Source: Lunularia cruciata (Eukaryota; Streptophyta; Marchantiopsida; Lunulariales; Lunulariaceae). From it: 64,000 bases of DNA. Shown piece by piece: positions 5,487 through 50,384 of this stretch. The first letter of the stretch is position 1, and every line of letters starts with the position of its first letter. The stretch covers positions 61,904,593-61,968,592 of the forward strand of contig OX419759.1 of NCBI GenBank assembly GCA_948567375.1. Reading direction: 5' to 3'. The position numbers were made by a program, and so were the translations under genes. The notes beneath the pieces are model-generated. The model searched no databases, was not told the DNA's origin, and saw only the letters and a list, made by a program, of their open reading frames with translations.

Positions 5487-5489
5487 TTT

Positions 5490-8890: not shown

Positions 8891-8999
8891 GGGAGAAGGA
8901 GGAGGTTGGACATGAGAGGAAAGAGAAGATGGGTTTGGTACAAAGGGTTTCAACTTGGAAATGTGAAAGACAAGGTCGATGCGCATATGACAAGGTAAG

Positions 9000-10250
9000 G
9001 TAAGTTGATAGGCAACAAGAGAGATGATTTAGGTGACCTCAAAGTGTCCAATCCAATTAGAGGTGAGTTTACAAACTGGGGTATCAAGTGGAAGGGGTAG
9101 GTTACTAGAGGATAACTTGACTTTATCACCAACTTCAAAGGTGAGATTACGATGATGGTAATCCGCATATCGTTTCTAATGATTTTGAGCAATAAGGAGG
9201 TGAGATTTTGCTTGTTGTAGAGATTGGGATATGGTGGTCAAGAAGGTTGAAGTATGAGGGACCTGAGATGGAGGAGGAGTAAGAAAAGAATCTAGAACAA
9301 GCAGATCTTGGCCAAAATTGAGAAAGAAGAGAGAAAATCCGGTGCTTGCCTATTTGGAATTATCATAGGCAATTTTGTAGCTCAAAGACATTCATCCCAA
9401 TTGGTATGGTGGACATTAACAAAGGCACATAGCATATCCTCCAATGTATGATTTGCATGTTTGGTTTGTCCATCATTTTGAGGATGATAGGCCATGGAAA
9501 AAGCAAGCTTGGTGTCGAGTATTTGGAAGAGTGCTTGCCAAACTTCTTGGTGAATTGAGGATCACGGTCGGAGATGAGTACATGTGGCATCCCATGATAC
9601 TTGAAGACATTGTCAAAGTAGATTTGCACTAAGGTTGGAGCATCCATGGTATCAAAGGTTGGTGCCAAGTGGATTTGCTTATTGAGTTTATCCACAAACA
9701 CCACGATTGTTGTGTGTCCTTACTTTGTCTAGGGCAAGGATGTGATGAGATCTAAGCTCACGTGTTCCTATTGAGTGGATAGAATGGAGAGTGGTTAAAG
9801 GAGTCCACTCAACTTTTGGTTGCTCGCCTTGTTACGTTGGTAGCTCTCACATGATTGGACAAACTCTCAAACATCTTGTGTCATGTTGGGCCACCAACAT
9901 TGGCATTGGAGGGTACCCAAGGTCTTGTCCACACCCATGTGCCCAGCTATTGGTAAATCATAGGCTTCTTGAAGGCATACAAGTTGGAGATCACTCTTGG
10001 CTGGAACATAGATCCAATCCTCATGGAATAGAAGGCCTTCCTAGAAGGAGAAGGTGTTGTACTCCTTGTTGCATGTTGTAAGATGACCATGTACCATTTG
10101 GAAGAAGAGATCTTGTTGTAGAGCTGACCAAAACTTGTTTTGGACCTTGGAGTCAATTGACACCATTGTAATTGCTATCGTGATGAGAAGAAGAGACTTC
10201 AAATCAAGCCGCCGTGATAGAGCATTAGGGATGACATGGAATCAACTTGG
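9000..10250 (-). pseudogene. F3 copy 2 integrase
   Basis: The catalytic-core signature FVDKLNKQIHLAPT lies near 9700, followed by VLISDRDPQFTKKF near 9580, which carries the second acidic residue of the DDE triad. Integrase joins the cDNA ends to target DNA. The sequence then leads into the C-terminal region and chromodomain. Broken. Confidence 0.75.
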
Positions 10251-28785: not shown

Positions 28786-31400
28786 GCTGATGATTTGGTA
28801 CGAGGTGGATGTTGAAGATGAAAAACTGTACAATGTGACCTCGAGTAGTAGTGATATGGAGGAAGGGAGTTACGACTCCACTCAACTCGGACTGAGCCGA
28901 GTCAACCATGTGGAAGGAGTTATCCCACCTGATGACTATCAAGATGTTGTCTTGGAAGAAGGAAAACTACTTAAGATATCCAAGACAATCACTTTGAAAG
29001 AATTGGCAGATTCCATTGCTTTGTTTATAGAACACCATGATGTATTTGCCTAGTCTATTGATCAGATGCCAAGAATCCTTTGACATTCAGGGAGAATCAT
29101 ATTGATTTGGCAGAAAGTGTAGTCTCGGTTCAGCAATGCTAGTATTGTTGAACCCAAATTACTCACTCTTGATGAAAGATGAGACTAATAAATACTTTGG
29201 GAGTAGGAATTATCTTTCCGATCTTGAGCAATGAATGGGCCTCCCTAATTGTCATTGTTTTGAAGAAGAAGAACAAAAAAATTTGGGTGTGCTAGGATTT
29301 TTGCAAACTAAATGCAGTGACAAGGAAGGATAATCATCCTTTGCCATTTATAATTTGCCTATATAATTTTAGACCAAGTAGCAGGTCATCCTTGCTATAG
29401 TTTTCTAGATGGATTTTCAGCCTATAATCAAAGTGTCTATTTGGGGATAAGACAAGGACAAAACCACATTCACTATTGATTGAGGTACCTATGCATATAA
29501 TCAGATGCCCTTTGTGTTGTGTCATGCTCCTACTACATTCCAACAAATGATGAATGTGATGTTTTAAGGACTTCCTTCAAAAGTTTGTGGAAGTCTTTAT
29601 CAATGAATTTTGTGTATTTGGATAAAGAGAAGTGCATTTGGAGTATCTTTGTGAAACATTTGATAGGTATTGTGTTGCAAGCTTTTCCTTACACTCGGAA
29701 AACTGTTTTTTTGCAATGATAGAACGGATTTTGTTGGGATACCGGGTATCAAGCCAAGGAATAGAAGTTGATGTTGAAAAGGTGAAGGTAATAATAGCCT
29801 TAAAATCTCCCAAAAAATTTGGGAGCTAAGAGCCTTCTTGGGTCATGTTGGATATTACAAGCATTTTGTGGCCAATTATGTAGTATTGGCTGCACCCTTA
29901 AAAAGTTGTTAAAGAAATCTGAAAACTATTAATAGGAGACAGAGCAAGAAGAGGCCTTCCAAGCACTAAAGAGGAAAATAGTGGAAGCACCCATTATGAG
30001 GGCTCCAAATTGGAATGTCCCTTTTCATGTATATGTGGATACTTTGTCCATGAAAATAGGAGTAGTCCTCAGCCAAAAGGATGAATAGAAGAAAGTTTAA
30101 CCTATTTATTATGCCAATAAGCAGTTGTCAATTGCAAGCAAAAATTATACCACTATAGAACAGGAAGCACCTTGAATGGTATATGCCTGCAAAAAATTTT
30201 GACACTACTTGTTGGGATTTGAGTTTGTGTTCCATGTGGATCATTATGAGCTGCAACACTTAGTGAAAGAAGGTTGACTTGTCAAAGTAAATTGCACATT
30301 GGATTCTATCACCACAAGAATTCACATAAATCGTACAAGTAAGGAAGAAACCTTTGCATACAAATGTGGATTTCCTATCCAGGTTAGAAACTTAGGACCA
30401 AGATCTAGAAATAGATTATTGTTTCCCTAATGAAGAGCTATGCCACTTGATGGCAATAGGAATTACAAGAAATGCAATAGAATAGCATTATCTGCATGCA
30501 TATCAATATCCTAAAGGACTGGATTTGGAACAAAGGGCAATCTTTCTTAGGAAAATTGGATCCTATCAGCGCAAGCATAATGCTTTGTTTAAGATGGGCA
30601 AAGAAGAGATGCTTTGTACGTGCTTGGAAGCCTATGAGGTAAGGGGAGTAATATAATCCCTACAATTGGAAGCATCAAGAGGTCATTATGCATTGAAGAA
30701 CTTTGTTCAGAAAATCCATGCTGTAGGATATTGGTGGCCTATGATGTATAAAGATACACAAGCCCATATTAGAAGTTGTGATGCTTGTTAGCAAACCAAC
30801 ATCCACTACCTAGTGGCCTTTGAGACCAATTTTGCCATTGGCTTCATTTGAGAAATGGGGTATTGATTTTGTGGGTCTGATTCAACCGGTCACACGATTT
30901 ACTAGAAAGAGATACATTCTAGTATACACTGATTATGCTACTAAAATGGTTGAGGCTGAGGCAACTCGAAAAGATGATGCAGAAATAGTAGCAAAATTTT
31001 TCTTCCAAAACATCATCTCTAGATATGGATGTCCTCTAGAATTAGTTAGTGACTGGGGTACTCATTTTTTGAACTCATGGAGGCTTTAACAAAGTGTTTT
31101 CAAATTAAACATTGGAAGATGACTCCCTATAATCCAAAAGAAAATGGGTTGATAAAGAAAGTTAGTGGGTTGCTCTGTAAAATTTTGAATAAGGTGATAG
31201 TCAATTATGCCAATAATTAGGACAAGAAGTTACCTATAGCTTTAGGGGCATATAGGATGATTGAAAAGATTACCACTAAGCAGACTCTGTGTTCCTTAAC
31301 ATATGGATTACATCTCATATTACTTGTTGAGTTTGAAATGCAGTCATATTGTATCCTATCTAAAGAATTGTTGTCGGAGGATGGATATTTGGATTCAATA
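28786..31400 (+). mobile_element. F1 copy 4: pol, part left of F4
   Basis: Begins in the protease-RT linker (a YEVDVEDEKLYNV block and STQLGLSRVNHVEGV near 28880-28920). RT (about 29080-29900), RNase H (about 30000-30400), the zinc-binding and core parts of integrase (WGIDFVGLIQPVTRF near 30855; RYILVYTDYATKMVEAEATR near 30910) and SRYGCPLELVSDWGTHF near 31020 follow. F4 interrupts at 31400/31401 and the sequence resumes at 41317. Old, with many breaks. Confidence 0.82.
31397..31400. other. F4 target site duplication, left (AATA)
   Basis: AATA lies on both sides of F4 (31397-31400 and 41317-41320). The empty-site form GGATTCAATAGCTAAT is visible at 41451-41470 in a tandem duplicate of the same host sequence, which confirms that four bases were duplicated. 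Confidence 0.85.
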
Positions 31401-31507
31401 TGTCGTGCGTATATACATCGCTACACAACATACATCGCTGTCAACATCATACACTATAAAAGCACAACTCACACATAAGTCATACATAGACTCTAAAGTG
31501 CCACAAT
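31401..31507 (-). repeat. F4 Q repeat, distal copy
   Basis: 107 bp starting TGTCGTGCG and ending GCCACAAT on the plus strand. Identical by eye to 31958-32064. It forms the outer left end of the element next to the AATA duplication. Contains TATATA (31410-31415) and, in plus orientation, TATAAAAG (31455-31462). Confidence 0.92.
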
Positions 31508-31955
31508 AATCAGATTGCTTAACATTCTCAACTCAACTCAACTCAGATCAGTACTTGATCTATCACTCTATAAACTGCCAACAATTGGGCACTGATTACA
31601 GTCAAGCCACACCCACTCAAGCATAGAGAATCCAGGTGACGCTCGCCGGCCTCTGTCCACCATAGCCAGGAACTCGAAGGCTCAACATCAGAGAAGTGAG
31701 CTCTCTGGAGCTCACTTCGAAACTATACCCCCTGGACTCGAGCTAGCCCTGAAACCCTAACGGTCCCGCTGACGGCACACTCGACGGTGCAAACGGTGCA
31801 AAGTGACGGTGGGCCCCACCGTGAAGTCAGTACCCCGAACACGAAATCTAACCGTCGGAAAGTAGTCCCTGAGAAACAGCTAGAATAACTCTAACTACCA
31901 TCACTGGAACTCCAGTGTCCGAGCATCTAGATGCGGAACTACAAATGGCGTGACA
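31508..31955 (-). repeat. F4 P repeat, 3' copy
   Basis: 448 bp, matching 40869-41316 with about two differences (both single bases). Ends GCGTGACA on the plus strand. Lies between the two Q copies. Confidence 0.95.
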
Positions 31956-31957
31956 GC

Positions 31958-32064
31958 TGTCGTGCGTATATACATCGCTACACAACATACATCGCTGTCA
32001 ACATCATACACTATAAAAGCACAACTCACACATAAGTCATACATAGACTCTAAAGTGCCACAAT
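31958..32064 (-). repeat. F4 Q repeat, proximal copy
   Basis: Identical to 31401-31507. Separated from the P copy by GC, giving a GACAGCTGTC palindrome at the junction (31952-31961). On its inner side it abuts a purine tract. Confidence 0.92.
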
Positions 32065-32075
32065 CGCCCCCCTAG
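32065..32075 (-). other. F4 polypurine tract
   Basis: The minus strand reads AGGGGGGCGA directly before the proximal Q repeat (TTGTGGCAC). It is the likely primer for second-strand synthesis, which would make Q the first part of the 3' terminal repeat. Confidence 0.6.
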
Positions 32076-32231
32076 CTGGCGGTTAGGTCCCTCTAACTCC
32101 AGATAGCCATCTACTCTAAGTATATGGTATACCCTCTAATGGGCAAAGATCAGGAGGCCGGGTGCTATGGAGCCCCATCGTTAGTCGCCTGTCTGCAATC
32201 TATACCATATAAAGAATGAACTAGCTATAGG
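32076..32231 (-). other. F4 untranslated stretch after the PHD finger
   Basis: About 155 bp between the end of the coding region and the purine tract. No motif recognised. Confidence 0.6.
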
Positions 32232-32234
32232 TCA

Positions 32235-32378
32235 AGTACATCTAGGACATAACCACTGTCCCTGAGGAACCACCGTGAGGGGAGGAGTCATACATGCCAT
32301 ATGCCATCCTCTCGAACAGCTATCACACACTAACATAGTAGCAGCTCCACCAGAAGAGCCACATAACATACACCTCAA
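32235..32378 (-). pseudogene. F4 PHD finger at integrase C-terminus
   Basis: The last 48 residues of the integrase part hold a textbook C4HC3 pattern: C-x2-C-x11-C-x2-C-x4-H-x2-C-x14-C-x2-C, with the usual W two residues before the seventh ligand (W-L-C-P-R-C). PHD fingers bind histone H3 tails, often by the methylation state of K4 (family knowledge). Its place is that of the chromodomain in chromoviruses, so a targeting role is plausible but inferred. Confidence 0.9.
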
Positions 32379-32599
32379 GCCTGCACGTACAAGTGCCAAG
32401 CTTGGGTCCATAGTACCATCAATGTTTGGAAGGTGGCATGGCGCACAATTGCGCACATGATCCTTCCAAACAACACCATCACGTCCTTCTAACACAAGGA
32501 CTCCAGATGGCAAAACCTCGCGCACTCTCAAGATAGTGCGGCCTGTAGAAACATCAAGTGTCGTCGGTGCTGTCTGCTGTAGATATACATAGTCGCCTG

Positions 32600-33490
32600 G
32601 ATGAAATCGACGGATTGAGGGTCTATAACCTCCTCCTCGAATGGTAGCATAGCGTAAAGTATCTCTATGCTGAGCAATCGCCAAGTTCTCGAAGGCCATC
32701 GGCATCACCCTCCGAAAGATCTCTGCCCGTTGAGAACATGCGCTCATCCATACATTAGGGTCATCCAAGTCCAAAACTACAGTAGCATCTCGACGAATGG
32801 CTGCAGGTAAATCTGGATCTCGTCCATAGAGTAGAAAGTATGGAGAGAAGGATGCTAAGGAGGCTTGCCGGCTGAACCGATAGCCCATGGCCAACCAAGG
32901 TAACTGGAGATCCCAATCTCCCAAGTGGCCTCTCTGCAAACCATACTTTCGCAATCCTCTCTTCACCGTCTGAACCACTCTCTCTGCTAAGCCATCTGCC
33001 TCAGGGTGATCTCGGGATGTAGTACGATGATCAATCAAAGCCTTGTCACACAAGACCTGAAACTCTCCCAAGAACTCTGTACCCTGATCAGTCAAAACCT
33101 CAGCTGGTGCACCAAAATGACTAAGAACTCGATCCAGGAACGAGTAAGCTGTCCCTTCACTAGACTTGTCAGGAAGTGCCACCAACTCAATCCACTTGGA
33201 GAAGTGCTCCACCATCACCAAAACATACCGATGATGTCTCACAGTCAGCGGTAAAGGTCCGGCGAAGTCCAAACTCCAACGGTAACCCAATCCCATGATA
33301 GGTAATGGGTGTAACTGTGGCGTAGGAGCATTGAATGATGCTCTAACTTGGTCACAAACCACACATCTGGCAACAAACTGCTGTACCTCGGTCTGCATAC
33401 TGCGCCACCAATAATGACTTTGGAGTAAGCTATATGTACGCTTTACTCCAAAATGTCCTAGCTCCTCATGAGCATGACGGACCAACTGTG
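32600..33490 (-). pseudogene. F4 DDE integrase
   Basis: An N-terminal zinc-binding region (HEELGHFG then RCVVCDQV) at about 33350-33490. The catalytic core has D in WSLDFAGPL (near 33268), D in VLTDQGTEFLG (near 33088) and E in DGLAERVVQ (near 32984), the D,D-35-E type spacing of retroviral and gypsy integrases. A GDYVYLQQ block near 32590 matches the C-terminal SH3-like region. It inserts cDNA, consistent with the 4-bp target duplication. Confidence 0.92.
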
Positions 33491-33868
33491 GTCTCTGTGA
33501 TGGAAGTGGTACTACTCGCACTCTACCATCTTCCCATACACGCAAAAGGTGTCTACCCTCCAATCTGAACCGTCTGGCCCGCTGAAGAACACGGTCTCTC
33601 TCCTTGGCCCCAACTGTGCCACCCACAACACCAGTGCAAAGATAGTCCATCACTAAGACATCATCATGAATGTCTCGCTGAACTGTACCAATATCTTCAC
33701 TCTCTGGATCTGTGACCTCAATAACTCCTCCTGTATGCGCTGAGAGAGATACCACCAATGTCTTTGCAAATATACACAGAAAGGCCGATGCATGCCAACC
33801 TGGCACCATCTCCTCATTTGTCTCACCATGCCAACGTGCTCCGGTCTGATCCTGCTGGCTGGGACATG

Positions 33869-34208
33869 GGTTTCTACTCAACCCATCTGCATCACGGTTC
33901 ACCACTCCAGGTCTGTGAACAACCGTGAAATCATACTCTTGTAAAATCAGAGCCCATCGTGCAAGCTTCCCTGAAAGCTTGTCGGACTCCATCAACCACT
34001 TCAGCGGCTGATGATCAGTGATGAGAGTGAAGGGGTTACCAAATAGGTAACATCGGAAATGTGCTACTGCCCAAACTGCTGCCAAGCACTCTCCCTCATA
34101 TGAACTATACTTCGCCTCCGCTGAATTGTTGGAGCGACTAGCATAGGCCACCACAAACTCCTTCTCCTCATCATCATGTTGGGTGAGCACCGCTCCAAGC
34201 CCCAACAT
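33869..34208 (-). pseudogene. F4 RNase H
   Basis: About 113 residues: a FVVAYASRSNN block, KYSSYEGECLAAVWA, a FTLITDHQPLKWL block and a DADGLSR end. This is the standard gypsy RNase H after RT, followed by an RPG-type linker to integrase. Confidence 0.92.
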
Positions 34209-34489
34209 ACTCCAATCAGTGTGAACCTGAAATGGTCATCCCCTGATCGGTCTCCTCAAAATAGGAGCAGATGTCAACCTCTCCTTGAGCTCTACAAAAG
34301 CTCTCTCCTGCTCATCTCCCCAACACCACTCCTCTGTAAGCTTGGTCAGCTTCGTCAAGGCCTTGGCAATGGCACTAAATCCTCTAACATAGCGGCGATA
34401 GAAGTTTGCCAACCCAAGGAATGCTCGCACTCTGCTCACATCCGTAGGCCGAGGAATACGTGCAATAGCCTCCACCTTGGTCTGCTGAA

Positions 34490-35075
34490 CACCAAGTCCT
34501 CCGGGGTAGATAGTGTGACCCAAATACTCAACCTGCTCATGGAAGAACCTACACTTCCCAGGATGTAATTTGAGTCCATGAGATCTCAACCTCTCAAACA
34601 CCTCCAACAACTGTCTCTCATGCTCCTCCACAGTAGTGCTATACACCAAAATGTCATCAATATAGCACCGAGCAAAATCCAGTCTAGCTAGGATCCTATC
34701 CATGACCCTCTGGAACTCAGCAGGAGCATTCTTCAACCCAAATGGTAAGAATCTCCACTGATATAACACATCCTTACCGTGAGGATCAATAGCCCAAAAT
34801 GCTGTCTTGGACTTATCTTCCTCCCTGATCGGCAACTGATGATATCCCGCTCGAAGATCCAAAGTACTGAAGACCTTTGCATGCCCAATCGCATCAAAAA
34901 TCTCCTCCGGTGTAGGCATGGCATACCGATCAGCCCTGGTCTGTCGGTTGATAGGACGGTAATCTCCACACATCCGCCTATCTGTATAGTTGCCATGCAT
35001 ATCCTTCTTGGCTGGCATCACTGTCGCTGATGCATACTCTCCATGTGAAATCTCCACCAAACCAGCCTCAAAAAG
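34490..35075 (-). pseudogene. F4 reverse transcriptase
   Basis: Motifs in order: SATVMPAKKD, DRRMCGDYRPINRQT, YAMPTPEEIF, FSTLDLRAGYHQL, LPFGLKNAPAEFQRVMD, CYIDDILVYS (catalytic YIDD near 34660) and LGLANFYRRYVRGFS in the connection region. The wording differs from F1/F2 (FxDDF type) and F3, so F4 belongs to another gypsy lineage. Confidence 0.93.
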
Positions 35076-35474
35076 GTCACTACTCCGGCTCTGAATCAAT
35101 GTCCTCTCCATCTCACTATATCGATAAGGACGTCGGAAAACAGGTGTGTCGCTAGTCAGCTCAATCCGTATACCAGGTCCCTTCAGAGCACCCAAATCCT
35201 TCATACTGAAGGCAAAACAACTCGTGTGACTCCTCAAGAACCTCCAAACCCTCCATTTTTCCTCTCCAGTAAGCTTGGGTCCAAGATCTGGCTCCCAAGT
35301 ATCCTCTGTAACTGTAGTAGGAGTGGAAGACGTACTGACTGGCTGCTATACTGGGCCCTTGGGAGCAATGGTGTCATGCTCCCGACCACTAGAGGTCCCA
35401 GCCTCTGTGTGAAAAACTCCCTCCACTCTGGCTGCAAGCTCCATACGTCCTCTGGCTGCATCCCATGTGGACCA

Positions 35475-35564
35475 AGGGTGTAATCCAAGTAGCCCACGCT
35501 CACCTGGATGGACTCCAAGTAGACCACTCTCCCTAGTAGCTACTGGATGTGTCCCAAGAATACC
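35475..35564 (-). repeat. F4 short peptide repeat after the methyltransferase
   Basis: Three copies of a G-x-L-G-x-H-P unit (GILGTHP, GLLGVHP, GLLGLHP) within about 30 residues between the MTase and RT. Function unknown; probably a flexible linker. Confidence 0.7.
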
Positions 35565-35669
35565 ATGTCCACTCGGTCCATCGCCCCCATCATGTGCCTG
35601 AATCGTCTCGATAGGCACAGGGCTCACAAGTGTCCGAGTGGTGATGCCTATCAAGTGCATCCTACGCTG

Positions 35670-36630
35670 CTCTGCCAAACCAAGGCTCACAATCCAGGTC
35701 AAACAGTTCAGGTCCATAGCCTGACCTAACACCTGACGCCTGGATGCCTCCGACACTGCTGGAACAGCGGTAATACCGGTGCGAAAACCCATTGCCCGCT
35801 CTCTCTCATCAGCATTGGGCTCCACCAACTGCTGTAACTGTGAGTCCCAAACAAGTCCAGGTCCTCCCTCTCGGAAAGCATGAGAGCCTGGGAAACTCAT
35901 GAGTGTGGGAAATGCAGCTCTAGGCTGTCCAACTAGGTTCACCACTGCCATGGGTGACCTATCAGCCACTACCACTGTCTGAGACTGACGCCCAACATCC
36001 AAGATATCATCAACAAGAATGTGGTCCAGTCGTTGAATCCCATCATAAGCACGCTGTAGAACCTCTCTGGGTAAGAGGTTTGTCCACCAAAGACGAAGAC
36101 GATGAGCCCGTGATCCCACTCTGGCTGCATCTAACAATACAGCAGGTCCCATCCATGAATGGACCTGATGTGTACTCGCCACCACTCTAGTGCGAGAATC
36201 ACCCATCAATGGAACGTTCTCCAAAAGGTAAGCTGGAGAAACAGACTGATGAACCTGGAGATGTTGTAGTATCCGTAACATCTCCCAAAACACACCCAAA
36301 CGAGGATCCTGAAGACCCAAACCGCGGCCCGCACGTGTATGTCCCTGACATGGCCATCCAGAAATCACCAAGTGAATAGGCCCATGTCTCTCTAGGTCAT
36401 GCGCCCCCAATAAGGAAATGTCTCCTGGTAAGGCCTTCTGGTAACCTCTGACTGCTGACATCGGTAATAACTCCGGATACCGATAGGCCAAGTGTGCCAC
36501 ATGATGTAGAGAGACTCGCCTAGCAGTCTCATCTCTCTCTACATACAAGTACCTCTGTACTCGGATACCCGCCTGTAACACCGCAGCTAGTCCGGTGCTG
36601 ATCCCACCAAACAACTCTAATAGACATATC
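35670..36630 (-). pseudogene. F4 cytosine-5 DNA methyltransferase domain (DNMT3/DRM-like)
   Basis: A C5-MTase fold lies between protease and RT. Motif I is LLELFGGISTGL (SAM binding), followed by YVERDETARRV (motif II-like). The catalytic Cys is in GWPCQGHTRAG (motif IV, PCQ near 36345-36353), with ENVPLMG as motif VI (E-N-V) and RAHRLRLWWTN as motif VIII. A C-terminal ERERAMGF then RRQVLGQAMDLN matches motifs IX/X of DNMT3-like enzymes. About 315 residues. The Dnmt3/DRM resemblance rests on the motif VIII-X wording; the PCQ triplet is more general. Such enzymes put methyl groups on cytosine; target choice here is unknown. Confidence 0.88.
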
Positions 36631-37064
36631 CCCTCTACTGGATACTGCCAAGCAATGAGTGTGGTATCCAGAGGTGTCAAAGCAATCGCCTCTGGAGGCT
36701 CATCCTCACACTCATCCCCTGATGGTATGAAGGCTCCACTCCAAGCCTGCTGCACCAACTGATCTGCATGCTGCTACAATGCCTCCTCTGAACTCCACAA
36801 TGGAACATCCAAGGTGGATGGAACAATCCCACTCGTACTCCATAGCCGAGTGATCTCCTCTGGTACTGGAGTATCCTCTGCATGGGCGTTCCCCTCCAAC
36901 AAGTCACCAGGCCAAGTAACTGCACCGCTGAAAGCCAAAACTGATGCTGCCATGGTCCCGGACTGTAGTGAGCCAAGACTGCCACTACTGAAACGTACTG
37001 GTAGGCGACATACTCGTCCCTCACCAGACTGCCAACCAGGTCTATAAGAGGCTGTCTCCTCCCA

Positions 37065-37360
37065 ATAGTCAATACTGAAACCCATAAAGTATAACACTGC
37101 TCCCCCAACTAGCACATCATATGACTCAGCTATCGTCGCAATAGCCTGAGCTCTCACCACCGAGCTATCAGTCGGATGACCAGGCTGAACCTGGACAACA
37201 AGCTCCCCACGTGTGATGTACTGTGTCGAACCACCACCTAGAGATGTCTGGATCTGAAATGGACACCTCTCCACATCGGTCTTCCGTAACTCCAGACCAA
37301 CAACTGCAGCCTTCCCCAACATAAGGGGCTGCGCACCAGAGTCTAACAAGACTCTCTGTG
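37065..37360 (-). pseudogene. F4 retropepsin
   Basis: RVLLDSGAQPLMLGK holds the D-S-G active site near 37337-37343. A GELVVQVQPG strand and a SYDVLVGGAVLYFMG segment follow, the usual C-terminal half (normally LLG). It is translated in line with Gag upstream and the MTase downstream. Confidence 0.85.
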
Positions 37361-38199
37361 GTGTATAGACCTTCCCTGAAGGTCCCACCAAACCAAAAAT
37401 CCCCCTCTGGTTATCCAATAGGACAACACCAGGTGTAAACCGCGCTCTCTCAAAGGCCGGTCTAGCTGGCAACTCCTCGAGTCTAGCCGCTGCTGCCTGC
37501 CATAAACCACTGGTCGCTGAACGGATCCCATGCTCCTCAAACAAGTCAGCTCCACTACCAACCACCTCTGCTCTAGTAGTAGGAACTGCACCATCCCTAC
37601 TCTCACACAACATGGCAGCCAACCGGAACACTGGGGCTGGGTCCACTCCCAATGTAAACATGTCACTGGCTGAAAATAAAGGATGCCGCATAATCAGCTG
37701 AGCCGCCCCCAACATCATGCTAGACTCAATCTGTGTAGTAGCAGGTGGCTGACTAGCAGGTATTCCATCAGGTACTCCATCACCACCTACCACACCTGCA
37801 CTGGGACGTCTAGGAACCATGGATGTCGTCTGCAATGCCTCAGATAGCGTGAAAGACTGGGGAAGTCTGACCTGTCTCCCAACCTCTCCTCTCTGTGGGT
37901 CCAACTCCACTGATGCTCCTCTAGGCTCTGGAGCACGTACTGCACTCCTAGTCACTGCTGCAGATGCATCCACCTGTGCTGCTCCGCACATGAAGTCCAA
38001 AGCATCTCTATCACCAGCATATGAGGTGGAAGCCTCAGCACCCGAATCTGATCTCCTATGAGCAATAGCCATACTAGCCAATCTCTGCTCCAACTGCTCA
38101 ATCCGAGTAGCCATAGTTGTGTCAGAAGTAAGGGCAAGTACTGCATCCCTACTAGGTGTAGATCCTCTACCACCACCTCTACCACCTCGTCCTCCATGA

Positions 38200-39632
38200 A
38201 CTAGAGCTCCTCTACTACCTGCCATAGCAGCCCTACCACTCCGTAACTCCGGGTGTAGGTCAAAACACCGGTCACTAGTATGACCAAATCTATGGCAGTG
38301 CTCACACTGCCTCTGTGCTGGCTGTGATGCACCAGAGGTATCAGGTCCGCTGCCCTGAGTACACTCTCTCCTATGGTGAGGTCCACCACAAGTCCAACAA
38401 GCAACACCACCACTCACTGGCTGCTGCTGCCCTGAAAATGAGGGTAAGGGTCTAACTCCACTAGGCCCTCCACTCGCTCCATAGGATCTGGGCTGTCCAC
38501 CCTGTCCTCGAAAACCAACTGGGCGTGGTGCACTCTGCTGCACTCTAGAAGAAGTCACAACCGTGGATGAGGTCTCTCTACCAAATCCAGATGTCACCAC
38601 TCTCTCCTCCACCATGTTGAGCTCAATACGCTCAGCCAAACCAAAGACTACTGCCAAAGTGGGCGAAGTAGCCTGCAACAACGTAGCATCACGAACTCTA
38701 CATCGCAACTCCCTGTCCAGTATCCCATACCAAAACTGGACTGCCTGGGCCTCAGTAACTCCCTGAGTGAAACTGATCAGCCGCCTCATGCGAGTGTATG
38801 CCTCGCGTAGGCTCTCTCCAGCCTTCCGCTGGAACTCCTACAAGCTCCTCAGCTTGTCAGTCCGCACTCCATGGTAGTTCTGCCTCAAACATAGGAAGAA
38901 CTCAACCATGGGGTTAAACCCCGGTACCACACCACCTCCTGCAGCGGTACCTCCACTCGTAGTAGCACTATCTCCAGCTAGTGCACCTCCACTAGCTCCA
39001 CCAACACTACTCGAGCTAGAACTCGTAGGTACAGCCGACCTACTCCTGGCCACCAAACCTGAAGTGATGGAGACATAGTGTGGAGACCAATACTGTCTCC
39101 ATAACTCAATCTCCTCCAAATGAGCTCTCCTGAACTCATGGTAGTCGTCCATCGGTGGACCCTCCAAGTGCTGAAACAACCCCTTCCATGCCATGAAAGG
39201 TGTGAACAAAGTCGGGTTCCGCATCTGCTGCAAATCACACCAACTATCAAACTCCTGGATGAAGTCATCCAACTCAATGGTACCCACTGTACCAGAGTAA
39301 CGCCTAGGGCCTTTGGAGGCCCCATAAATCTCGTCCATGTCCCACAACAACGGTGCGGACACACCAAGTGCACTCTCAACTGAATCAGCTCCTGTGTCGA
39401 ACTCCAACTCAGAGTCAATCTCCTCTCTCACTGGGACCTGAGATACAGGCTGATACCGAGCACCACTCCGAGTAAACCCACTGCGTACTGCAGGGCTAAC
39501 TCCTCTGGAATCTCCAAAGAACTCCGTCGTGACAAAGTAACCACACCAACAAACCCGAACCACCAACTGCAACAGCAAGTCGCAACCGCAAGTGCCCCAC
39601 CAAGTGCCAACACCACCGCGTGCCAACACCAA
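38200..39632 (-). pseudogene. F4 gag with two zinc knuckles
   Basis: Starts near 39632. The capsid-like region is marked by FDSWCDLQQMRNPTLFTPF and MDDYHEFRRAH blocks near 39150-39265 and an AVQFWYGILDRELRCRV block near 38700-38735. An Arg/Gly/Ser-rich linker and two knuckles follow: CWTCGGPHHRREC (CX2CX3HX4C) and CEHCHRFGHTSDRC (CX2CX4HX4C) at 38265-38399. A second Gly/Arg-rich run (GGRGGRGGGRGS) near 38160-38190 may bind RNA. Confidence 0.88.
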
Positions 39633-40868
39633 CTAAAACACCACCCACTACTGTAACTCTAACCGAGATAACTACACTAGGGGAAGGGCAACCTGTAACC
39701 TGCCATCATAACACGCACTCTCACGGTCTGCAGGTCATCACTTCCTGCCTCACCGGAGAGAAACAAAGGTAGTCTGACTGGTCATCACTCCAGCCTCACC
39801 ACCGAGAGCACACCAGAGCACCAACGCTCAAAAGTCAAGGCACCTCACACAAACGTGGTGCACAAACAGGAAGTAGAGAATGGAGGGGATCCAATCACAA
39901 GAAATCTAAACGAAAACCCTCCATCTCATAACACAACACGGGACTGACTCTGCCACCATTTGGCATTTGACATAAGAGTAGTTCGTATCTAAGTCCTAAG
40001 CTACCAGGATCACCAAGAATGGGATCAAACTGCCTCTCCTAGCCAAAGCTACATGTGTATAGATAACAGTGGCACAGTCACTATGACAACAAGTGAGGGT
40101 GGACCAGTTGGCTAGGGCACCAGTCTAGGAACAAGAGATCTAGGGGTCAAACCCTGTTGCGCACAATCTAGCAAGAAAGGCAGATTTTGCCAACCAATGA
40201 CCAAGATCTACACTAAACTAGCTAGCCTCACGCCAGCAAGCTGGCTTGCTGGCCCTTCTGGCCCTTCTAGGCCTTCGTAGCCTCTCATAGCCCACAGCCC
40301 TATGCCTCGAAGCCTCGAAACGCCAAAATTCAGCCAAATGAGGCCTTTCTTGTTGCCACTTCGAACCTCCTCCAAACTAGCGAAACTTCTCCAAATCTGG
40401 CCAAACAGCGAAACTCCTCCAATTCTGGCCCAAAATCTGACGTAAATCTGACGTAAAATCTGACGTAAACCCTAAAGATGGATGTCCGCCAAATCCCCCG
40501 CTAACTTTCCACTCGAGCCAAATTGACAAAACGGGTTTTTCCAAATCACAATTTCATGAGAAGAGCTTTCCAACTCCACCTTCAATTTCACTTTCTGAGC
40601 CCAACTCGCAGCAAATTGGTCCTGCCTTCACCTCCTGAGCTCAAAATCACAACACTGCTCAAAAATTGCTTCTTCTTTGCTCGAAATTTGGCCAGCGCTT
40701 CCGCACACCGTCCGCCTAACTGCCAAATTTGCATCAACTACACGAGCTTCTGCACACTAGGGAAACACAGAACCTGAATCGAGCTACCACGATCCACCGA
40801 GCTTGGAGATACCACCAACACTCAACGTTCCTGCACCCGATTTCCCCCTGACTTCACTTCTATGATGT
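39633..40868 (-). other. F4 leader between P repeat and gag
   Basis: About 1.2 kb without a supported gene. No clear tRNA-type primer site follows the P repeat: the minus strand reads ATTACATCATAGAAGTGAAG and lacks the usual TGG start. It contains a tRNA-like pol III promoter pair on the plus strand (40107-40154). Confidence 0.65.
40107..40154 (+). promoter_or_regulatory. tRNA-like A and B boxes (SINE head?) inside the F4 leader
   Basis: GTTGGCTAGGGCAC (A-box-like, 40107-40120) and GGGGTCAAACCC (B-box-like, 40143-40154), spaced about 35 bp as in tRNA genes and tRNA-derived SINEs. It lies antisense to F4. I see no clear poly-A/T tail or target duplication, so it may be a SINE remnant or a chance tRNA-like segment. 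Confidence 0.45.
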
Positions 40869-41316
40869 AATCAGATTGCTTAACATTCTCAACTCAACTC
40901 AACTCAGATCAGTACTTGATCTGTCACTCTATAAACTGCCAACAATTGGGCACTGATTACAGTCAAGCCACACCCACTCAAGCATAGAGAATCCAGGTGA
41001 CGCTCGCCGGCCTCTGTCCACCATAGCCAGGAACTCGAAGGCTCAACATCAGAGAAGTGAGCTCTCTGGAGCTCACTTCGAAACTATACCCCCTGGACTC
41101 GAGCTAGCCCTGAAACCCTAACGGTCCCGCTGACGGCACACTCGATGGTGCAAACGGTGCAAAGTGACGGTGGGCCCCACCGTGAAGTCAGTACCCCGAA
41201 CACGAAATCTAACCGTCGGAAAGTAGTCCCTGAGAAACAGCTAGAATAACTCTAACTACCATCACTGGAACTCCAGTGTCCGAGCATCTAGATGCGGAAC
41301 TACAAATGGCGTGACA
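40869..41316 (-). repeat. F4 P repeat, 5' copy
   Basis: 448 bp, nearly identical to 31508-31955. Preceded on the plus strand by TGT (40866-40868) and ending GCGTGACA next to the AATA duplication. It forms the outer 5' end of the element with no Q copy beside it. Confidence 0.95.
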
Positions 41317-41540
41317 AATAGCTAATATGGCTAGAAGAAAAGCAAGCCCGATGCACTACAAACTACAAGAGAAGTATAAGCTCAAAGGAATGATATGCAT
41401 GATAGAAGGTTAGAGCCTATTACTGTTTTTGAGGGCAACTTGGTCAAGATATTTGGATTCAATAGCTAATGTGGCTAAAAGAAAAGCAAGCCCGATGCAC
41501 TACAAACTACAAGAGAAGTATAAGCTCAAAGGAAAGATAT
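41317..41540. repeat. 144-bp tandem duplication in F1 copy 4
   Basis: AATAGCTAATATGGCTAGAAG at 41317 recurs as AATAGCTAATGTGGCTAAAAG at 41461, and the copies stay similar up to the solo LTR at 41541. The second copy shows the uninterrupted sequence at the F4 insertion point. Confidence 0.85.
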
Positions 41541-45163: not shown

Positions 45164-45955
45164 TCACTTCTCTGCATCACCTCCTTGTGCTTTCTTCAAT
45201 CTCCTATGAATGCTTTGGAAGGTAGGAAGATCAAAGTGAATAGGTAAGGTAGACTCAAGACCATACACCAATTGAAATGGAGAATATCTGGTGGAAGTTT
45301 TCATAGTTGTCCTATACTCCCACAAAACTGCATGAATCCTCTTGTCCCAATGATGTTTAGCCCCTTCCATTTCTGCATCTTTGGCCAACATCATGCACAA
45401 GGTCTGATTGGTTCTCTCTGCCAAGCCATTGGAATTTGGCTTATAGGATGTAGTTACTCTATGGGTGATAGAGAAATGTCATAGCATAGCTGTAGTAATG
45501 CTTCCTATAAACTCTCCTCCTCTATCAGAAACCAACTCCAAAGGGCATCCAAACCTAGTGATAATGCATTCATAAAGAAATCTACCCACTTCATCTTCAT
45601 TCTTGTCCCTCAATGGTCTAGCCTCAACCCACTTGGTAAGGTAATCAATAACTACCACAATGCACCGATTGTTCCTTGGGGTTCTATTGAGAGGACCTAC
45701 AAAATCAATTCCCCACTTCTCAAAAGCTCCTAGCAATGGAATTGATCTAAGTGGTGGAGTGGATGTAGACTTTCTAGCAAAAGCTTGACAAACATGACAA
45801 GTTTTGCAATAATCAAGACAATCCTTGAAAATCCCTCTCCAATGGTAACCTGCATCTAGAATCTTGAAAGCAGTCACCTTTCCTACAAAGTGTCCTCCAC
45901 ATACTAAACCTTCATGAAACTCCTTTATGAGTAGGATAGACTCATCCTTATCCAC
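45164..45955 (-). pseudogene. F2 copy 2 integrase
   Basis: The zinc-binding part has FHEGLVCGGHF and CKTCHVCQAF. The core has FEKWGIDFVGPLN (first D), GCPLELVSDRGGEFIG (second D) and MAERTNQTL (E), then HWDKRIHAVLWEYRTT and SPFQLVYGLESTLPI. This is the standard Athila/Tat integrase order. Broken. Confidence 0.88.
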
Positions 45956-46204
45956 TGCTCTTCAAAGTAGACCATCTGCTCCTTGGTGAAAAAGAATATC
46001 CTCCACCATTGTGTAAGGTCTAGATCTTGCTGCAAGGGCCTTCCTCTCCCTAGCATGCATCCTTTTTGGATAGTTACCTCTTGTCACAAAATCCACAATC
46101 TCCTTGTACTCCATTGGAACCTCTTGAGTGACTGAGATTGTCATGAGCTCCTCATCCGGGAAGGAATCATCCACTGGCTCATCTTCATCATGATCATAGG
46201 CTCT

Positions 46205-46564
46205 TGATAACAAATCAGCATTTGCATGTTTCTTTCCTGGCCTATCCTCAATGGTGTAGTCATACTCAGATAAGAGTATCATCCACCTTGCTAGTCTCCC
46301 TTCAACATTAGGCTTGTTGAAGATGTACTTCAAAGCCTTGTGATCCGTGACAATGGTGGCTTTCCCTCCAATCAAGTAGTGTCTAAACTTCTTGAGACCA
46401 AATATCACTGCCAACCCTTCTCTCTCCGTGACAGAGTAGTTTTTTTTTGCTGAAACCATCTGCCTACTAGCATAAGCTATTGGATGATCATGCCCATCTT
46501 GGTCTAATTGACTAAGAGTGCATCTGATAGCTACATTAGAAGCATCAATGTAGAGGATGAAAGG
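46205..46564 (-). pseudogene. F2 copy 2 RNase H
   Basis: WSKPFILYIDASNVAI start, HPIAYASRQM, NYSVTEREGLAVIFGLKKF, ATIVTDHKALKYIF and KKHANADLLSR end: the complete block order of gypsy RNase H. Confidence 0.92.
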
Positions 46565-46649
46565 CTTACTCCAATCAGGTTTAGCAAGAATTGGAGCTAC
46601 AACAAGGGATTGCTTGAGCTCCTCAAAAGCTTTGAGAGCCTCCTTGTCC

Positions 46650-47350
46650 TCCAAAATCACCATGTAATCTACACCCTTCTTCATGTAGATGGTCAATGCA
46701 TAAGCTTTGTTGGAAAATGAGAAGATGAACCTCCTATAGTATCCAACCATCCCCAAGAATTGGCGTAACTTTGTCAAGCTTGAAGGGAATGGAAGGTCTG
46801 AGATTTTCCTCACCTTCTTAGGACCAACTGCTATTCCATCCTTGGAGATGATGTGCCCCAAAAGTAGACCTTCTTCACATCCAAAAATGCACTTCTCTGG
46901 GTTGAGTGATGCATTTGCCTCATCCAAGCGTTGCAAGACTTTGATTAGGTGCTCAAAGTGCTCCTCCTTGCTCCCATAGACACAAAAGTCATCAATGAAG
47001 TCTCTCACAAATTTCCCAATGAAAGGTTCAAATACCTTGTTCATGAACCGTTGGAATGTGGCTGGAGCATTGCAAAGCCAAAAAGGCATGACCTTGAAAG
47101 CGTAAGTTCCCAAGGTGTGGTGAATGTGGTGAGTTGTTGATGCTCTAGTGCAATCTTGATTTGGTTGTATCCACTATAACCATCTCCAAAATTGTACCTC
47201 TCATGACCTGCAACCTCCTCCAAGATCTCATCAATGAATGGCAATGGGTAGTAGTCCTTCTTGGTAATAGCATTGAGCTTCTTGTAATCCACACATACTC
47301 GAAGCTTGCCATTCTTTTTCTTCACAATGACAATTGGAGACACCCATTCT
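46650..47350 (-). pseudogene. F2 copy 2 reverse transcriptase
   Basis: SPIVIVKKKNGKLRVCVDY, KKDYYPLPFIDEILEEVAG, GDGYSGYNQIKI, YAFKVMPFWLCNAPATFQRF, FIDDFCVYGSKEEHF (catalytic region near 46990) and FLGMVGYYRRFI. Tat/Athila lineage. Broken. Confidence 0.9.
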
Positions 47351-47355
47351 GAATT

Positions 47356-48280
47356 CTACACCTCAAAGATAAATCCAGCCTCCTTGAGCTTATCAATCTC
47401 CTCCTTCACAACCAAAGATATTGGTGGGATAATGCGACGTTGCTTTTGGCGGATTGGTCTTGCATGTGACTCCACCTCTATCTTGTACTCCTCCAAGGTC
47501 ACTTCCTTCAAAGCCTTGTAACTAAAAGCAAACACATGGATGAACTTGCAGAAAATCTCCTCAAATCTCACCTTCTCCTCCTTGGTAACATTTGGACCAT
47601 ACTTGAGGGTAGAAAACCTTCTCTCTACATCCTCAAGTATCAATGGTGATTTATCTGGGTCCTTCAAAACCTTTGGCTTAGGTGCAAAATCCATAGCACA
47701 CAAAGGATACACATCTGAATCAGATTCAGATTCATCCTCCTCCGTGGAAGCCTCCTCTTCCATGCTTGTATCCACACCTTAAGATCCTTCTTCAAAATCT
47801 GATTCTCAATAATCAGAAGATGGTGTATCTGAATGTGAAGTGTTGGTGGTGTTAGTCACAGGAACTGTGACTCTATGGTTTGATTGCCTAATCCTCAAGT
47901 ACCCTTTGTGCCATTGATCAGTTGTGCGTGCTACTCTCAACCATGGCCTCCCAAGAAGTAAGTCATAGCTTGAATCTTTCAAGACTTGGAAAGTCATGAG
48001 ATTTTGAACTCCTATAACTGAAACTACCACTTTATCCATCACCCCTACTGGTCAAACTTGTTGCTTGTTTGCCATGCTCACCACAAATGTTGAAGTTCTT
48101 GAGGGTATCATACCCAACTTCTTCATCAACCTTTCTGACATGGCATTCACTGCTAATCCTCCATCAACCAATGCATCCTTGATGTTGTGATCATTCACTC
48201 TCACATCAATCTTGGAGGCATATTCACAAGCCTCCCATGGTGCTGGCTTGGCATCCACCACCCCCATTGATACCGGAACT
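47356..48280 (-). pseudogene. F2 copy 2 retropepsin and linker to RT
   Basis: ALVDGGLAVNAMSERLMKKL near 48160 marks the active-site half of the protease, and SYDLLLGRPWLR near 47945 the second half. An acidic linker (EEEASTEEDESESDSD near 47735) and a RPIRQKQRRIIPP block lead to RT, as in Athila-like elements. Confidence 0.8.
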
Positions 48281-48289
48281 GTTGCCTTC

Positions 48290-49678
48290 TTCTTCCTCTT
48301 GCTCCTTGTAGAACTCAAACCACCTCTAAGCTCCTTTCTCAAGGTAGGGTTCAAAGCAATTAATTGGCCCACTATGATGTTAGCCTTGTGACTACCAACA
48401 TCCTCCAACGCATTGTAGTTCCATTGTTGCTTTGAGATCAAGAAGTCCTCCATCCTCAACTTCTTCCTAGGAGTCTTTGTTGTTGATGGTGTTGAGGTGC
48501 GAGTGCTCCTAGTAGACATAGGAGTATCCTTGCTTGAAGTAAATCCTTGAGAAGAGTAAACATCCTCTGCAAAACAAGCTCTCTTCTTCTCTTGTGCCAA
48601 AAGCTCCAAATTAAGACTCTTGGAGTTTGAGCACTCTCCCTTCTCATACTTGCTCTCCACAACATCTATGGATGCTATCCCCTTACCTTTGTTTGGATCA
48701 GGAGCCACTTGGGTTTCACTACCTCCCTCTTTCCCTCTATTGGCTCCCTCATAACCCCTTCCTCCATGGTAAGTGGAATTTGGGCAATTCCTTTGGAATT
48801 TGGGCAATTTGGCCTCTTCCTCCACAACCAAAACAATTTCTATCATTGAAATTGTTGGCTGGTTGGCTTCTTCTAAATGGATATTTTCCATAACTCCTAG
48901 GCCCTCTCCCAACATTCTGATCCACCTCTCTCTTCTCCCATAGTTGCACCACATTGATCTTGAGATCCGCAAGTTGTTCTGTGATGGTTTGAAGTGGATC
49001 TTTTGGTGGAGATACAAGAACTGGAGCAACCACTACTTGTGGTGCAACCCTTGCCACCAAAGTATCAGTAGTTCCACCATACTTGTAGCCTTGAGGAGGA
49101 TGCACAACCTCCTTCACCACCAAATCACTCGCATCCCCTTCCAAACTCTCCTCCATACGAATTGTGATCTTGATAGCTTCAACCTTGGAAGAAGGTTTCT
49201 CATATCTCACCTTGCTTCTAATTTGTGGTCTAAACCCTCCCACAAAATTCTTGGTGAGCATGGCCCCTATGCCAATCATTGTAGTCTCCATATCATCCCC
49301 ACCCTTCCTCAACACTATGCGAAATCTGGACTCTAACTTTTCCACTCTTTCCACATAGACTCTCACTTTCTCTCCATCTCCTTGCTTGAGAAATGTAACC
49401 TCACTCATCAATCTCTCATAACTCTCATCAGGAAGAAAGTTCTCAATGAGTGCTGAAGTCAAAGTCTCCCAAGACTCCTCTTCCCCATCTCTCCTCTCTC
49501 TCTTTTGGTATTCTGACTCATACCATGTAAGTGCTACATCCTCAAAGAAATCTGGTAATAATGAGGCCCACTCATTCTTCCTCCTCTCATTGTTTCCTAT
49601 GCAAGCTCTCTTGAAGTCTCTCACAAAGGCCTCCATATCTTCTCCATCCTTGCCAAAGAAAACCGGAAGTTTCCCCAT
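48290..49678 (-). pseudogene. F2 copy 2 gag
   Basis: MGKLPVFFGKDGEDMEAF start at 49678; the capsid region holds WASLLPDFFEDVALTWYESE, VRVYVERVEKLESRFRIVL and MIGIGAMLTKNFVGGFRPQI. A zinc-knuckle segment (NCFGCGGRG) lies near 48830, then a charged tail with QGFTSSKDTPMSTRSTR and MEDFLISKQQWNYN. Particle protein. Broken in its later part. Confidence 0.85.
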
Positions 49679-49910
49679 CTTAACCTCTCACTATCTTTCT
49701 TTCTCTCAATTTTTTTTCTCTTTTCTTTTCTCTCACTCTATTACTAATAAAGTATATACATGACTAACACCATCTGAGAATAATCCACTCTAGGGAACAC
49801 AAAAGGTTCAGGTTGCTCCAAGATTTCTATAGCAACATCAAATCCTAGAGTACATATTAATCTAACTCTCATGGATAGTTTCTCCATAAGTTGAAAGATT
49901 ATCTCCATCA

Positions 49911-50384
49911 CTAATCTTGAGAACTAGCTGATGAAGGTGGTAGTATTTTTGTAGCTGTACTAAGGCTCTCTCCAAGATCCTTCACCAAAGTCTCCAAAAG
50001 TGCTTTTACTCCACTACACTCATGTCCTTTTGGAAGTCCTTCCACTCCACAAACCTCACATAACTCCTTGGTCTTAGATCTTCTCCCTCCTAATCTTGGT
50101 GAAGAAGGTCCAACATGCAAACCCAAGTCAAGTAAGCCTCTCCTTTCCCTCAATCTCTTGCTCTCAAAGGTCAATGGACATGAACTTGCCTTATGTCCCT
50201 TCTCTCCACACAGAAAGCACTTAGACTCACTCTTTCCTCCAAGTGGTGTAGGTTTTTGAATCCTCTCAACACTCTCTTCAAATTCTATTGTAAACTCTCT
50301 TTTCCTCAAATCCACCCCTACAATCACCTTAAACCCTTGGGGAACCTTGCATAATCTCAATTTCCACTCTTGATGACCCTCCAT
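49911..50384 (-). CDS. F2 pre-gag ORF with zinc knuckle, unknown role
   Basis: 157 residues, open from ATG 50384. An N-terminal VGVDLRKREFTIEFEESVERI segment, a CFLCGEKGHKASSC knuckle (CX2CX4HX4C, 50178-50219), a basic KRLRERRG and RRSKTKE stretch, then a second Cys/His cluster (CEVCGVEGLPKGHEC) and a coiled end. It lies in the leader between primer site and gag, a place where most Athila/Tat elements carry no ORF. F2 copy 1 has the same ORF in worn form. It may be an RNA-binding accessory protein; that is inference. Confidence 0.6.
   Translation of the reverse strand: MEGHQEWKLRLCKVPQGFKVIVGVDLRKREFTIEFEESVERIQKPTPLGGKSESKCFLCGEKGHKASSCPLTFESKRLRERRGLLDLGLHVGPSSPRLGGRRSKTKELCEVCGVEGLPKGHECSGVKALLETLVKDLGESLSTATKILPPSSASSQD

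Follow-up and report, generated by a model that had tools for sequence, protein, structure and literature searches.

The closest described systems to the locus considered here are retrotransposons that encode a DNMT3-type cytosine-5 DNA methyltransferase (MTase). A gypsy element with DNMT3 in its polyprotein is already known, namely KnitGypsy-Dnmt3 of the alga Klebsormidium nitens (de Mendoza 2018, PMC5890265). According to the accessible parts of that paper, this element combines the LTR Gypsy domain set with a non-rearranged Dnmt3-type MTase placed in the Pol polyprotein reading frame, its repeats are reported as DIRS type in the arrangement A-coding-B-A-B, and its MTase is under purifying selection, with Ka/Ks <0.2. 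The same source describes SymbioDIRS-Dnmt3 of dinoflagellates, where a Dnmt3 MTase is in frame with the reverse transcriptase (RT), the repeats have the same A-coding-B-A-B arrangement and a tyrosine recombinase is present. When expressed in yeast, the SymbioDIRS-Dnmt3 MTases carried out de novo CG methylation; KnitGypsy-Dnmt3 gave no methylation, a result called inconclusive by its authors (PMC5890265).

Concerning land plants, a 2019 paper denies such elements in the part available (PMC6338049), and a further work names streptophytes and dinoflagellates as hosts, citing the 2018 paper (PMC12344493, consulted in part). Open-access titles and abstracts yielded no recognisable land-plant gypsy element with DNMT3, and retroelement DNMT3 is not mentioned in the accessible portions of PMC6453930, PMC13182070, PMC12477816, PMC9033089, PMC9985172 and PMC10714607. 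These portions do describe a brown-algal DNA transposon with an N4/N6-type methyltransferase (PMC12477816), true plant DNMT3 such as PpDNMT3b in Physcomitrella (PMC6453930), and a 580-Mb genome of Lunularia cruciata with gypsy bursts (PMC9985172). The condition set in the first-pass annotation, that the architecture might already be catalogued, holds by half: the kind itself was known from Klebsormidium, and the open-access literature contained no recognisable description from a land plant. Klebsormidium was absent from the named relatives found in our protein searches, and KnitGypsy is compared here by its description only.

The window, i.e., the whole analysed stretch of 64,000 nucleotides of L. 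cruciata DNA, contains on its minus strand a high-copy Ty3/Gypsy element (31401-41316) with the structure gag-protease-MTase, a probable leaky UAG, and RT-RNase H-integrase-PHD, surrounded by A-coding-B-A-B repeats. Protease, RT, RNase H and integrase follow each other in gypsy order, with gag and a DDE integrase. Pfam recognised the RT (34239-35147; RVT_1, 5.6e-33), RNase H (33924-34208; RT_RNaseH, 5.9e-32), the H2C2 zinc domain and rve core of the integrase (32439-33533; 4.2e-18 and 5.6e-13) and a PHD finger at the integrase C-terminus (32235-32393; 1.3e-10). The N-terminal part of gag (38838-39632) and a segment including the C-terminal part of gag, with zinc-knuckle-like motifs seen by eye, and the protease (36774-38789) both end at stops that are missing in copies L009 and L010. 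In this copy gag and protease gave no Pfam match and were assigned by position and homology; the retropepsin-like protease (37074-37439) has the motif LLDSGAQ, and the homologous frames of the Closterium protein P0145 and of the distant relative L034 match Pfam aspartyl proteases. The Pfam matches and the DSGAQ protease thus bear out the earlier placing of the MTase within a polyprotein of gypsy type, after the protease and before RT. Three more stops interrupt the frame of this copy, one each in gag, RNase H and the linker between protease and MTase. In L009 and L010 the part from gag over protease to MTase is uninterrupted, and in L013 the part from RT over integrase to the PHD finger. Decayed gypsy elements without an MTase match are also present in the 64-kb window.

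Chromoviruses are gypsy elements with an integrase chromodomain. The window element resembles them in having a chromatin-reader module at the integrase end and differs in that a PHD finger replaces the chromodomain, for which the integrase C-terminus gave no Pfam match. Solved PHD fingers nearest to it by sequence include those of CHD4, KMT2C/D, KDM5, ATXR5 and UHRF1, and PHD fingers of similar kind have binding preferences for the H3 tail. Since the finger resembles H3-tail readers and occupies the place of the chromodomain, its predicted role in targeting is likely. The description of KnitGypsy-Dnmt3 is different in this respect, the word PHD being absent from the main text of PMC5890265 as available. 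Unlike SymbioDIRS-Dnmt3 with the tyrosine recombinase employed by DIRS elements (PMC5890265, in part), our element has a DDE integrase and target duplications; five window frames had no Pfam match to a tyrosine recombinase and had an rve integrase instead.

The MTase domain (35667-36638) is complete and non-rearranged, and its motifs I-X follow the canonical order. Segments of its frame that we take to be motifs I, IV, VI, VIII and X read LLELFGGISTG, GWPCQG, LLENV, AHRLRLWW and RRQVLGQAMD, respectively, so that the C5-MTase motifs noticed in order at first reading, within 35670-36630, are confirmed in a minus-strand frame and in nearly the same interval. Pfam DNA_methylase matches this frame at E=3.8e-7, and a sequence search of the PDB placed DNMT3A chains first (E=1.2e-10), followed by DNMT3B and 3C, with DRM2 far lower (E 0.027). 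An AlphaFold2 model based on an alignment of 48 sequences had pLDDT 94.4 and pTM 0.92; the best 50 of its 172 Foldseek matches in the PDB (E up to 0.001) were all DNMT3-family chains or complexes, the top one having E 1.5e-19 and a TM-score of 0.84 by target. The likeness to the DNMT3 family is far beyond chance, and host DNMT3 genes belong to the same catalytic fold family. The domain had been annotated as DNMT3/DRM-like; fold and PDB matches uphold the first half of this label, and the second half is rejected because the motifs are not rearranged (in DRM, VI-X precede I-V) and because the host DRM is a different gene, one exon of which (L002) does have the rearranged order. P96, C97, Q98, E140, N141, V142 and G12 are among the invariant columns in an alignment of the 13 nearer MTase sequences, and motif residues vary in distant relatives such as Closterium P0145 (ECQ and ENS) and P0144 (ECQ and ENT). 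The self-methylation proposed at first reading is plausible.

The open frame of the MTase and its C-terminal linker (35349-36758; 35346-36758 with the stop) ends at an in-frame TAG (35346-35348) followed by CAGCCA (35340-35345), which corresponds to the plant leaky-stop consensus UAG-CAR-YYA. The claim that the MTase is in line with both protease and RT was thus correct as to frame and incomplete as to continuity, since this TAG separates the MTase from RT. UAG-CAR-YYA is the readthrough signal of tobacco mosaic virus type, and its readthrough was measured in plants (PMC2754532, in part). The stop site was located in 23 of 24 copies, where TAG was present in 22 of the 23 and the full TAG-CAR-YYA in 21; this agreement is weak support for a conserved stop because the copies are young, and L034 is a stronger test. 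In L034, frames 3-3488 and 3492-6632 are open with TAG CAA TCA between them, i.e., the consensus is kept with two of the six bases after the stop changed. Since the TAG is shared by other copies and keeps its context even in the distantly related L034, it is not a product of decay of this copy. Judging by its context, the UAG is probably a leaky stop with putative readthrough. Because the MTase is encoded upstream of it, the enzyme would be expected together with Gag and protease, at Gag level, and RT-integrase by readthrough only.

In-frame stops also divide the polyproteins of SIRE1 and MuLV (PMC2194720, in part); leakiness is predicted here from sequence, and, unlike in those two, a DNA-modifying enzyme is on the abundant side of the stop. 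The difference from KnitGypsy-Dnmt3, with its MTase inside the Pol polyprotein frame (PMC5890265, in part), is a conserved UAG between MTase and RT, which share one frame and would be united in a readthrough product. Annotated proteins of relatives were compared in this respect, 23 of them being of the window type (P0101-P0122 and P0147, from Marchantia, Sphagnum and others). Twelve extend well beyond the MTase and stop without RT (P0101, P0102, P0103, P0105, P0107, P0110, P0112, P0114, P0115, P0117, P0118 and P0119; three of these are marked partial by the source), P0108 ends just past the MTase, and P0116, P0120, P0121 and P0147 end inside it. The other six (P0104, P0106, P0109, P0111, P0113 and P0122) are predicted gene models that continue from the MTase into later domains, and P0104 appears to skip the stop region. 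Since the Closterium models P0145, P0152 and P0153 and the metagenome protein P0059 have no stop between MTase and RT, the conserved stop seems to be characteristic of the clade of bryophyte type.

The element is not flanked by identical full LTRs. On the left there is only repeat A1 (40868-41316, 449 bp, starting with TGTCACG), and on the right are B1 (31958-32063, 106 bp), a GC spacer (31956-31957) within the palindromic B/A junction ACGACA-GC-TGTCACG, A2 (31507-31955) and B2 (31401-31506, ending with CGACA). A2 differs from A1 by 2 mismatches in 449 positions and B2 is identical to B1 (0/106), as befits the very young insertion proposed at first reading, although this copy also has the three further in-frame stops. 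The right-hand B-A-B was found in 21 of 24 copies and a whole or partial left A in 18 of 24, the ends of some copies falling outside the fetched stretch. The element has TG...CA ends and is bordered by the target-site duplication TATT (41317-41320 on the left and 31397-31400 on the right). Exact 4-bp duplications were found in 11 of the 13 copies, this one included, that had both ends in hand as located by end-sequence search and BLAST ends (TATT, TAGC, AATG, CCTA, AAGT, GGAG, ATGT, ATTT, ATTT, TATA and TGGT). In L026 three of the four bases agree (CGTT/TGTT); the flanks of L028 disagree and its A repeats are just 89% alike, as might follow recombination between copies.

For DIRS elements, a target duplication is not expected. 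The 4-bp duplications and the conserved end junction also distinguish the window family from KnitGypsy-Dnmt3 as described. L034, the noncoding part of which otherwise aligns with A and B in scraps, carries the junction 15-mer ACGACAGCTGTCACG once; chance sharing of any 15-mer between two 2-kb stretches is expected at about 0.004, and the internal B/A junction therefore seems constrained. A canonical tRNA primer site was not seen by eye after A1. A G-run before B1, possibly a polypurine tract as judged by eye, would make B the start of U3 and BA-coding-BA the standard cDNA. The integrated form would then be a cDNA permuted by one B, as from a tandem-LTR (2-LTR) circle cut at the second B/GC/A junction. 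The combination of permuted repeats and true target duplications points to a form of LTR replication so far undescribed.

The family is very large, and the MTase is a regular part of it. A 29-nt MTase motif with up to 3 mismatches has 3,314 sites in the 566-Mb host genome and a pattern for RT has 4,840, with 0 sites in the reversed control of the former and 0 in the control of the latter. Two merged searches (109 of at least 123, and at least 90) gave at least 187 distinct MTase places. On contig C1, the MTase is at the expected distance for at least 44 of 64 exact RT sites, comprising 39 with an exact MTase site and 5 matching MTase-bearing copies already found. In each of the 23 fetched copies, all selected by MTase match (3 by open frame and 20 at random from 109 retroelement matches), the MTase likewise precedes RT by a constant distance. 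The count of genomic copies with the MTase in the same place, proposed at first reading, thus gave many, and a one-off insertion is rejected by the motif sites, the distinct places and the RT sites on C1. The window element differs from KnitGypsy-Dnmt3 by its land-plant hosts and its thousands of copies.

Selection across copies was also compared. For changes common to at least 2 of 24 copies, pN/pS was 0.37 in the MTase, 0.38 in RT, 0.39 in the protease, 0.43 in the gag part and 0.58 in RNase H-integrase, values that can be used only to compare domains because the shared changes include stops (9 in MTase, 8 in RT and 3-11 elsewhere), which come from dead lineages or repeated C-to-T hits. For single-copy changes the ratios were nearer to neutral (0.81 in MTase and 0.64-0.77 in the others). 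Selection on the MTase thus resembles that on RT, which recalls the purifying selection reported for KnitGypsy.

The decay of inserted copies was evaluated by changes private to one copy. C-to-T singletons amounted to 93/4,414 base-copies in CG (2.1%), 203/10,389 in CHG (2.0%) and 240/49,949 in CHH (0.48%), CG and CHG thus having about four times the rate of CHH per site, and private A-to-G changes to 0.13%. This excess suggests that copies, once inserted, are methylated by CG and CHG systems of plant type and decay at these sites. Such a pattern is expected from host enzymes; it fits host silencing and is no evidence of self-methylation. CpG depletion was considered as a sign of self-methylation and dropped: the coding part has a CpG o/e of 0.45 and a CHG value of 1.2, and CpG o/e is 0.61-0.68 in the host DNMT3 and DRM exons and 0.73-0.84 in L034.

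Named relatives come from Calypogeia fissa, Marchantia polymorpha, Riccia sorocarpa, Sphagnum species and Closterium, and the other protein matches, which are the majority, are largely metagenomic. The order protease-MTase recurs in proteins of Marchantia, Calypogeia, Sphagnum, Closterium and metagenomes, and the assignment to a land-plant family at first reading was right; in Marchantia the members sit in gene models under names such as 'hypothetical protein'. Three orders were distinguished, namely protease-MTase-RT (the window type and Closterium), RT-RNase H-MTase-integrase, mostly with PHD (metagenomes; 16 RT rows forming one clade, 100/99), and MTase first (P0148). P0124 and P0127 have an extra C-terminal region with methyltransferase-like motifs seen by eye, and PDB matches of the P0127 tail are weak (E 0.34). 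The stop-free Closterium and P0059 proteins and the metagenome type with MTase between RNase H and integrase mean that a Gag-level dose of MTase is not general.

A phylogeny of the kind suggested in the first-pass annotation was built from 65 rows, i.e., 61 retroelement MTases that passed thinning and a filter on coverage, 2 host DNMT3, 1 reordered host DRM and human DNMT3A. All 61 retroelement MTases fell on one side (100/100) of this tree, which has only 4 cellular rows and a long-branch warning (P0148 and P0099 among the rows concerned). The window MTase belongs to a 12-row clade (100/100) that includes Calypogeia and Marchantia, apart from DRM, host DNMT3 and human DNMT3A. Two intron-interrupted host DNMT3-like genes (L001 and L004), found among the loci examined, group with DRM and human DNMT3A, and their separation from the 61 retroelement MTases, on 4 cellular rows, disfavours recent capture from a host DNMT3. 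Identity to the window element is 66-75% in the MTase and 67-82% in the RT of Marchantia members; 53% (MTase), 65% (RT), 81% (RNase H), 70% (integrase) and 62% (PHD) in L034; and 37-43% (MTase), 35-42% (RT) and 44-51% (integrase) in the RNase H-MTase-integrase type (P0124, P0127 and P0144). This parallel divergence and the well-supported RT clade favour one old capture of the MTase followed by relocation within the lineage, which appears to be the simplest reading; horizontal transfer or separate captures are possible. Separate captures for P0148 and for the RNase H-MTase-integrase order are less probable on these grounds, in a comparison whose close gypsy elements all carry the MTase.

A bacterial or viral origin of the MTase is rejected on three scans of viral contigs and one of prokaryote genomes. 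Two of the viral scans found no relatives, and the only match of the remaining one (L035) has 33% identity over 116 query residues, with no other element domain found there. The prokaryote scan gave a single locus, the retroelement L034, whose contig is binned as a cyanobacterium and is presumably mis-binned eukaryote DNA. Gypsy elements with DNMT3 from land plants and streptophyte algae form an old lineage, of which the window element is a member. Compared with the Klebsormidium element, several features are new: occurrence in land plants and on such a scale, an MTase encoded on the abundant side of the stop, a PHD finger, DIRS-like ends that nonetheless have target duplications, and a conserved junction of these ends. 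The first-pass annotation had overlooked the probable leaky stop, the split repeats and the PHD finger.

Summarizing these data, the following mechanism may be proposed. Most ribosomes would halt at the UAG and produce Gag-Pro-MTase, so that the MTase would be packaged in structural amounts, and the few that read through would supply RT-integrase-PHD. Either within the particle or when entering the nucleus, freshly made double-stranded cDNA would receive de novo methylation from the MTase, probably mainly at CG, and the new copy would arrive already bearing the host's default mark. The integrase would act on the conserved ACGACA/GC/TGTCACG junction and insert the copy, duplicating 4 bp of the target, and the PHD finger may help to choose chromatin. 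We infer the readthrough, the packaging, the methylation of cDNA with its context and benefit, the PHD role and the replication order of events. In our opinion, this model as a whole, from the particle MTase, leaky dosage and pre-integration methylation to integration at the junction and chromatin choice, has a probability of about 0.5. Its central part, that the MTase may be a particle enzyme acting on element cDNA as was proposed for dinoflagellate elements, has about even chances; the argument for it is the position before the stop, which would place the MTase in the structural precursor. A wider scheme, joining a single capture of DNMT3 by an ancestral streptophyte gypsy element, the Gag-level particle enzyme obtained through a leaky stop, cDNA methylation and a permuted-LTR cycle between LTR and DIRS types (DDE integrase on the internal B/GC/A palindrome of a tandem-LTR or circular form), is tentative and rather doubtful.

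Alternatively, the MTase could act mainly in the nucleus on host chromatin or sibling copies, where the methylation it spreads would limit harmful new insertions or silence competitors, to the benefit of both element and host. Restraint of transposition was listed as a possibility by de Mendoza et al. (PMC5890265, in part), the CG and CHG decay indicates that copies appear methylated in the germ line, and the high copy number could yield much enzyme. The position on the Gag side of the stop, however, points to a particle and not to a free nuclear enzyme. Moreover, CHG decay requires a CMT-type host activity. The Dnmt3-type retroelement MTases active in yeast methylate CG (PMC5890265, in part), and we consider nuclear action unlikely.

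Less probable again is a protective role, in which the MTase would not set a chromatin state and would instead spare the cDNA from a host defence directed, by deamination or cleavage, at unmethylated foreign DNA. Protection of this kind was proposed for SymbioDIRS (PMC5890265), and a paper on accessory domains proposes a defence role against DNA viruses (PMC6338049), both in the parts available; decayed gypsy elements without an MTase match nevertheless occur in the same window.

It is quite improbable that the domain methylates RNA, namely the genomic RNA of the element, thereby aiding its packaging or hiding it. Fold and sequence are those of DNMT3, and chains of the tRNA-methylating DNMT2 match at E of about 0.08 or weaker, although the MTase is located on the Gag side of the stop, downstream of the zinc-knuckle-like motifs seen by eye, and RNA methylation was raised for SymbioLINE-Dnmt (PMC5890265, in part). 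Just as improbable is a non-catalytic role, in which the fold would have been retained as a structural component or DNA binder of the capsid or of the integration complex. Such a role would agree with the silence of KnitGypsy-Dnmt3 in yeast, called inconclusive by its authors (PMC5890265, in part), and with the variable motif IV proline and ENV valine of some distant relatives, but hardly with the 13 nearer sequences, where the catalytic Cys, ENV and the residues of the AdoMet site are invariant.

Returning to the particle enzyme, the context of the stop predicts the dose and the place of the MTase. One element also pairs an H3-type reader, the PHD finger, with a DNMT3-type writer, which recalls the animal ADD-DNMT3 pair. 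As Marchantia, a model for genetics, is among the hosts of the family, why a transposon carries the kind of enzyme that is used to silence it becomes a testable question.

The main Ty3/Gypsy element bearing the DNMT3-type methyltransferase (window 31401-41316) has a GC content of about 0.51, a CpG observed/expected ratio of 0.45 and an undepleted CHG value of 1.2, while in its flanks within the window GC is about 0.40, CpG 0.15-0.24 and CHG 0.45-0.50. Pieces of gag, protease, RT, RNase H and integrase of a second, decayed gypsy element were found on the minus strand at 45242-50384, and no methyltransferase or PHD finger match was obtained in it.

The host genome (G000) contains two DNMT3-like genes of its own, L001 and L004, both interrupted by introns and located on contigs C7 and C1. 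Further host exons belong to a DRM gene (L002) and a DNMT1/CMT-like gene (L003); all these loci were named by eye and from the tree.

The protein P0028 is labelled as bacterial (Candidatus Obscuribacterales), yet bears a retroelement methyltransferase of the main element's kind, and was probably mis-binned. L034, a distant relative of the main element, is a retroelement of eukaryote type (positions 1-9285) on contig CADCWO010000201.1, assigned to the cyanobacterial genome AVDCRST_MAG81. The ends of this contig overlap each other by exactly 127 bases, suggesting that the assembly path closes on itself at 9,158 bp and represents either a one-LTR form or collapsed repeats. In Marchantia, the gene model Mp_7g09570 (P0074) fuses methyltransferase pieces, an integrase and a PHD finger, with no RT match in the model; it could be a copy with an internal deletion, or else a gene that has been taken over.

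The metagenomic proteins P0124 and P0127 are relatives with the domain order RT-RNase H-MTase-integrase-PHD, followed by an additional C-terminal tail of about 250 residues. Only weak PDB matches (E 0.34) were obtained for the P0127 tail; by eye, methyltransferase-like motifs were recognized in the tails, which are possibly a second methyltransferase, of adenine type.
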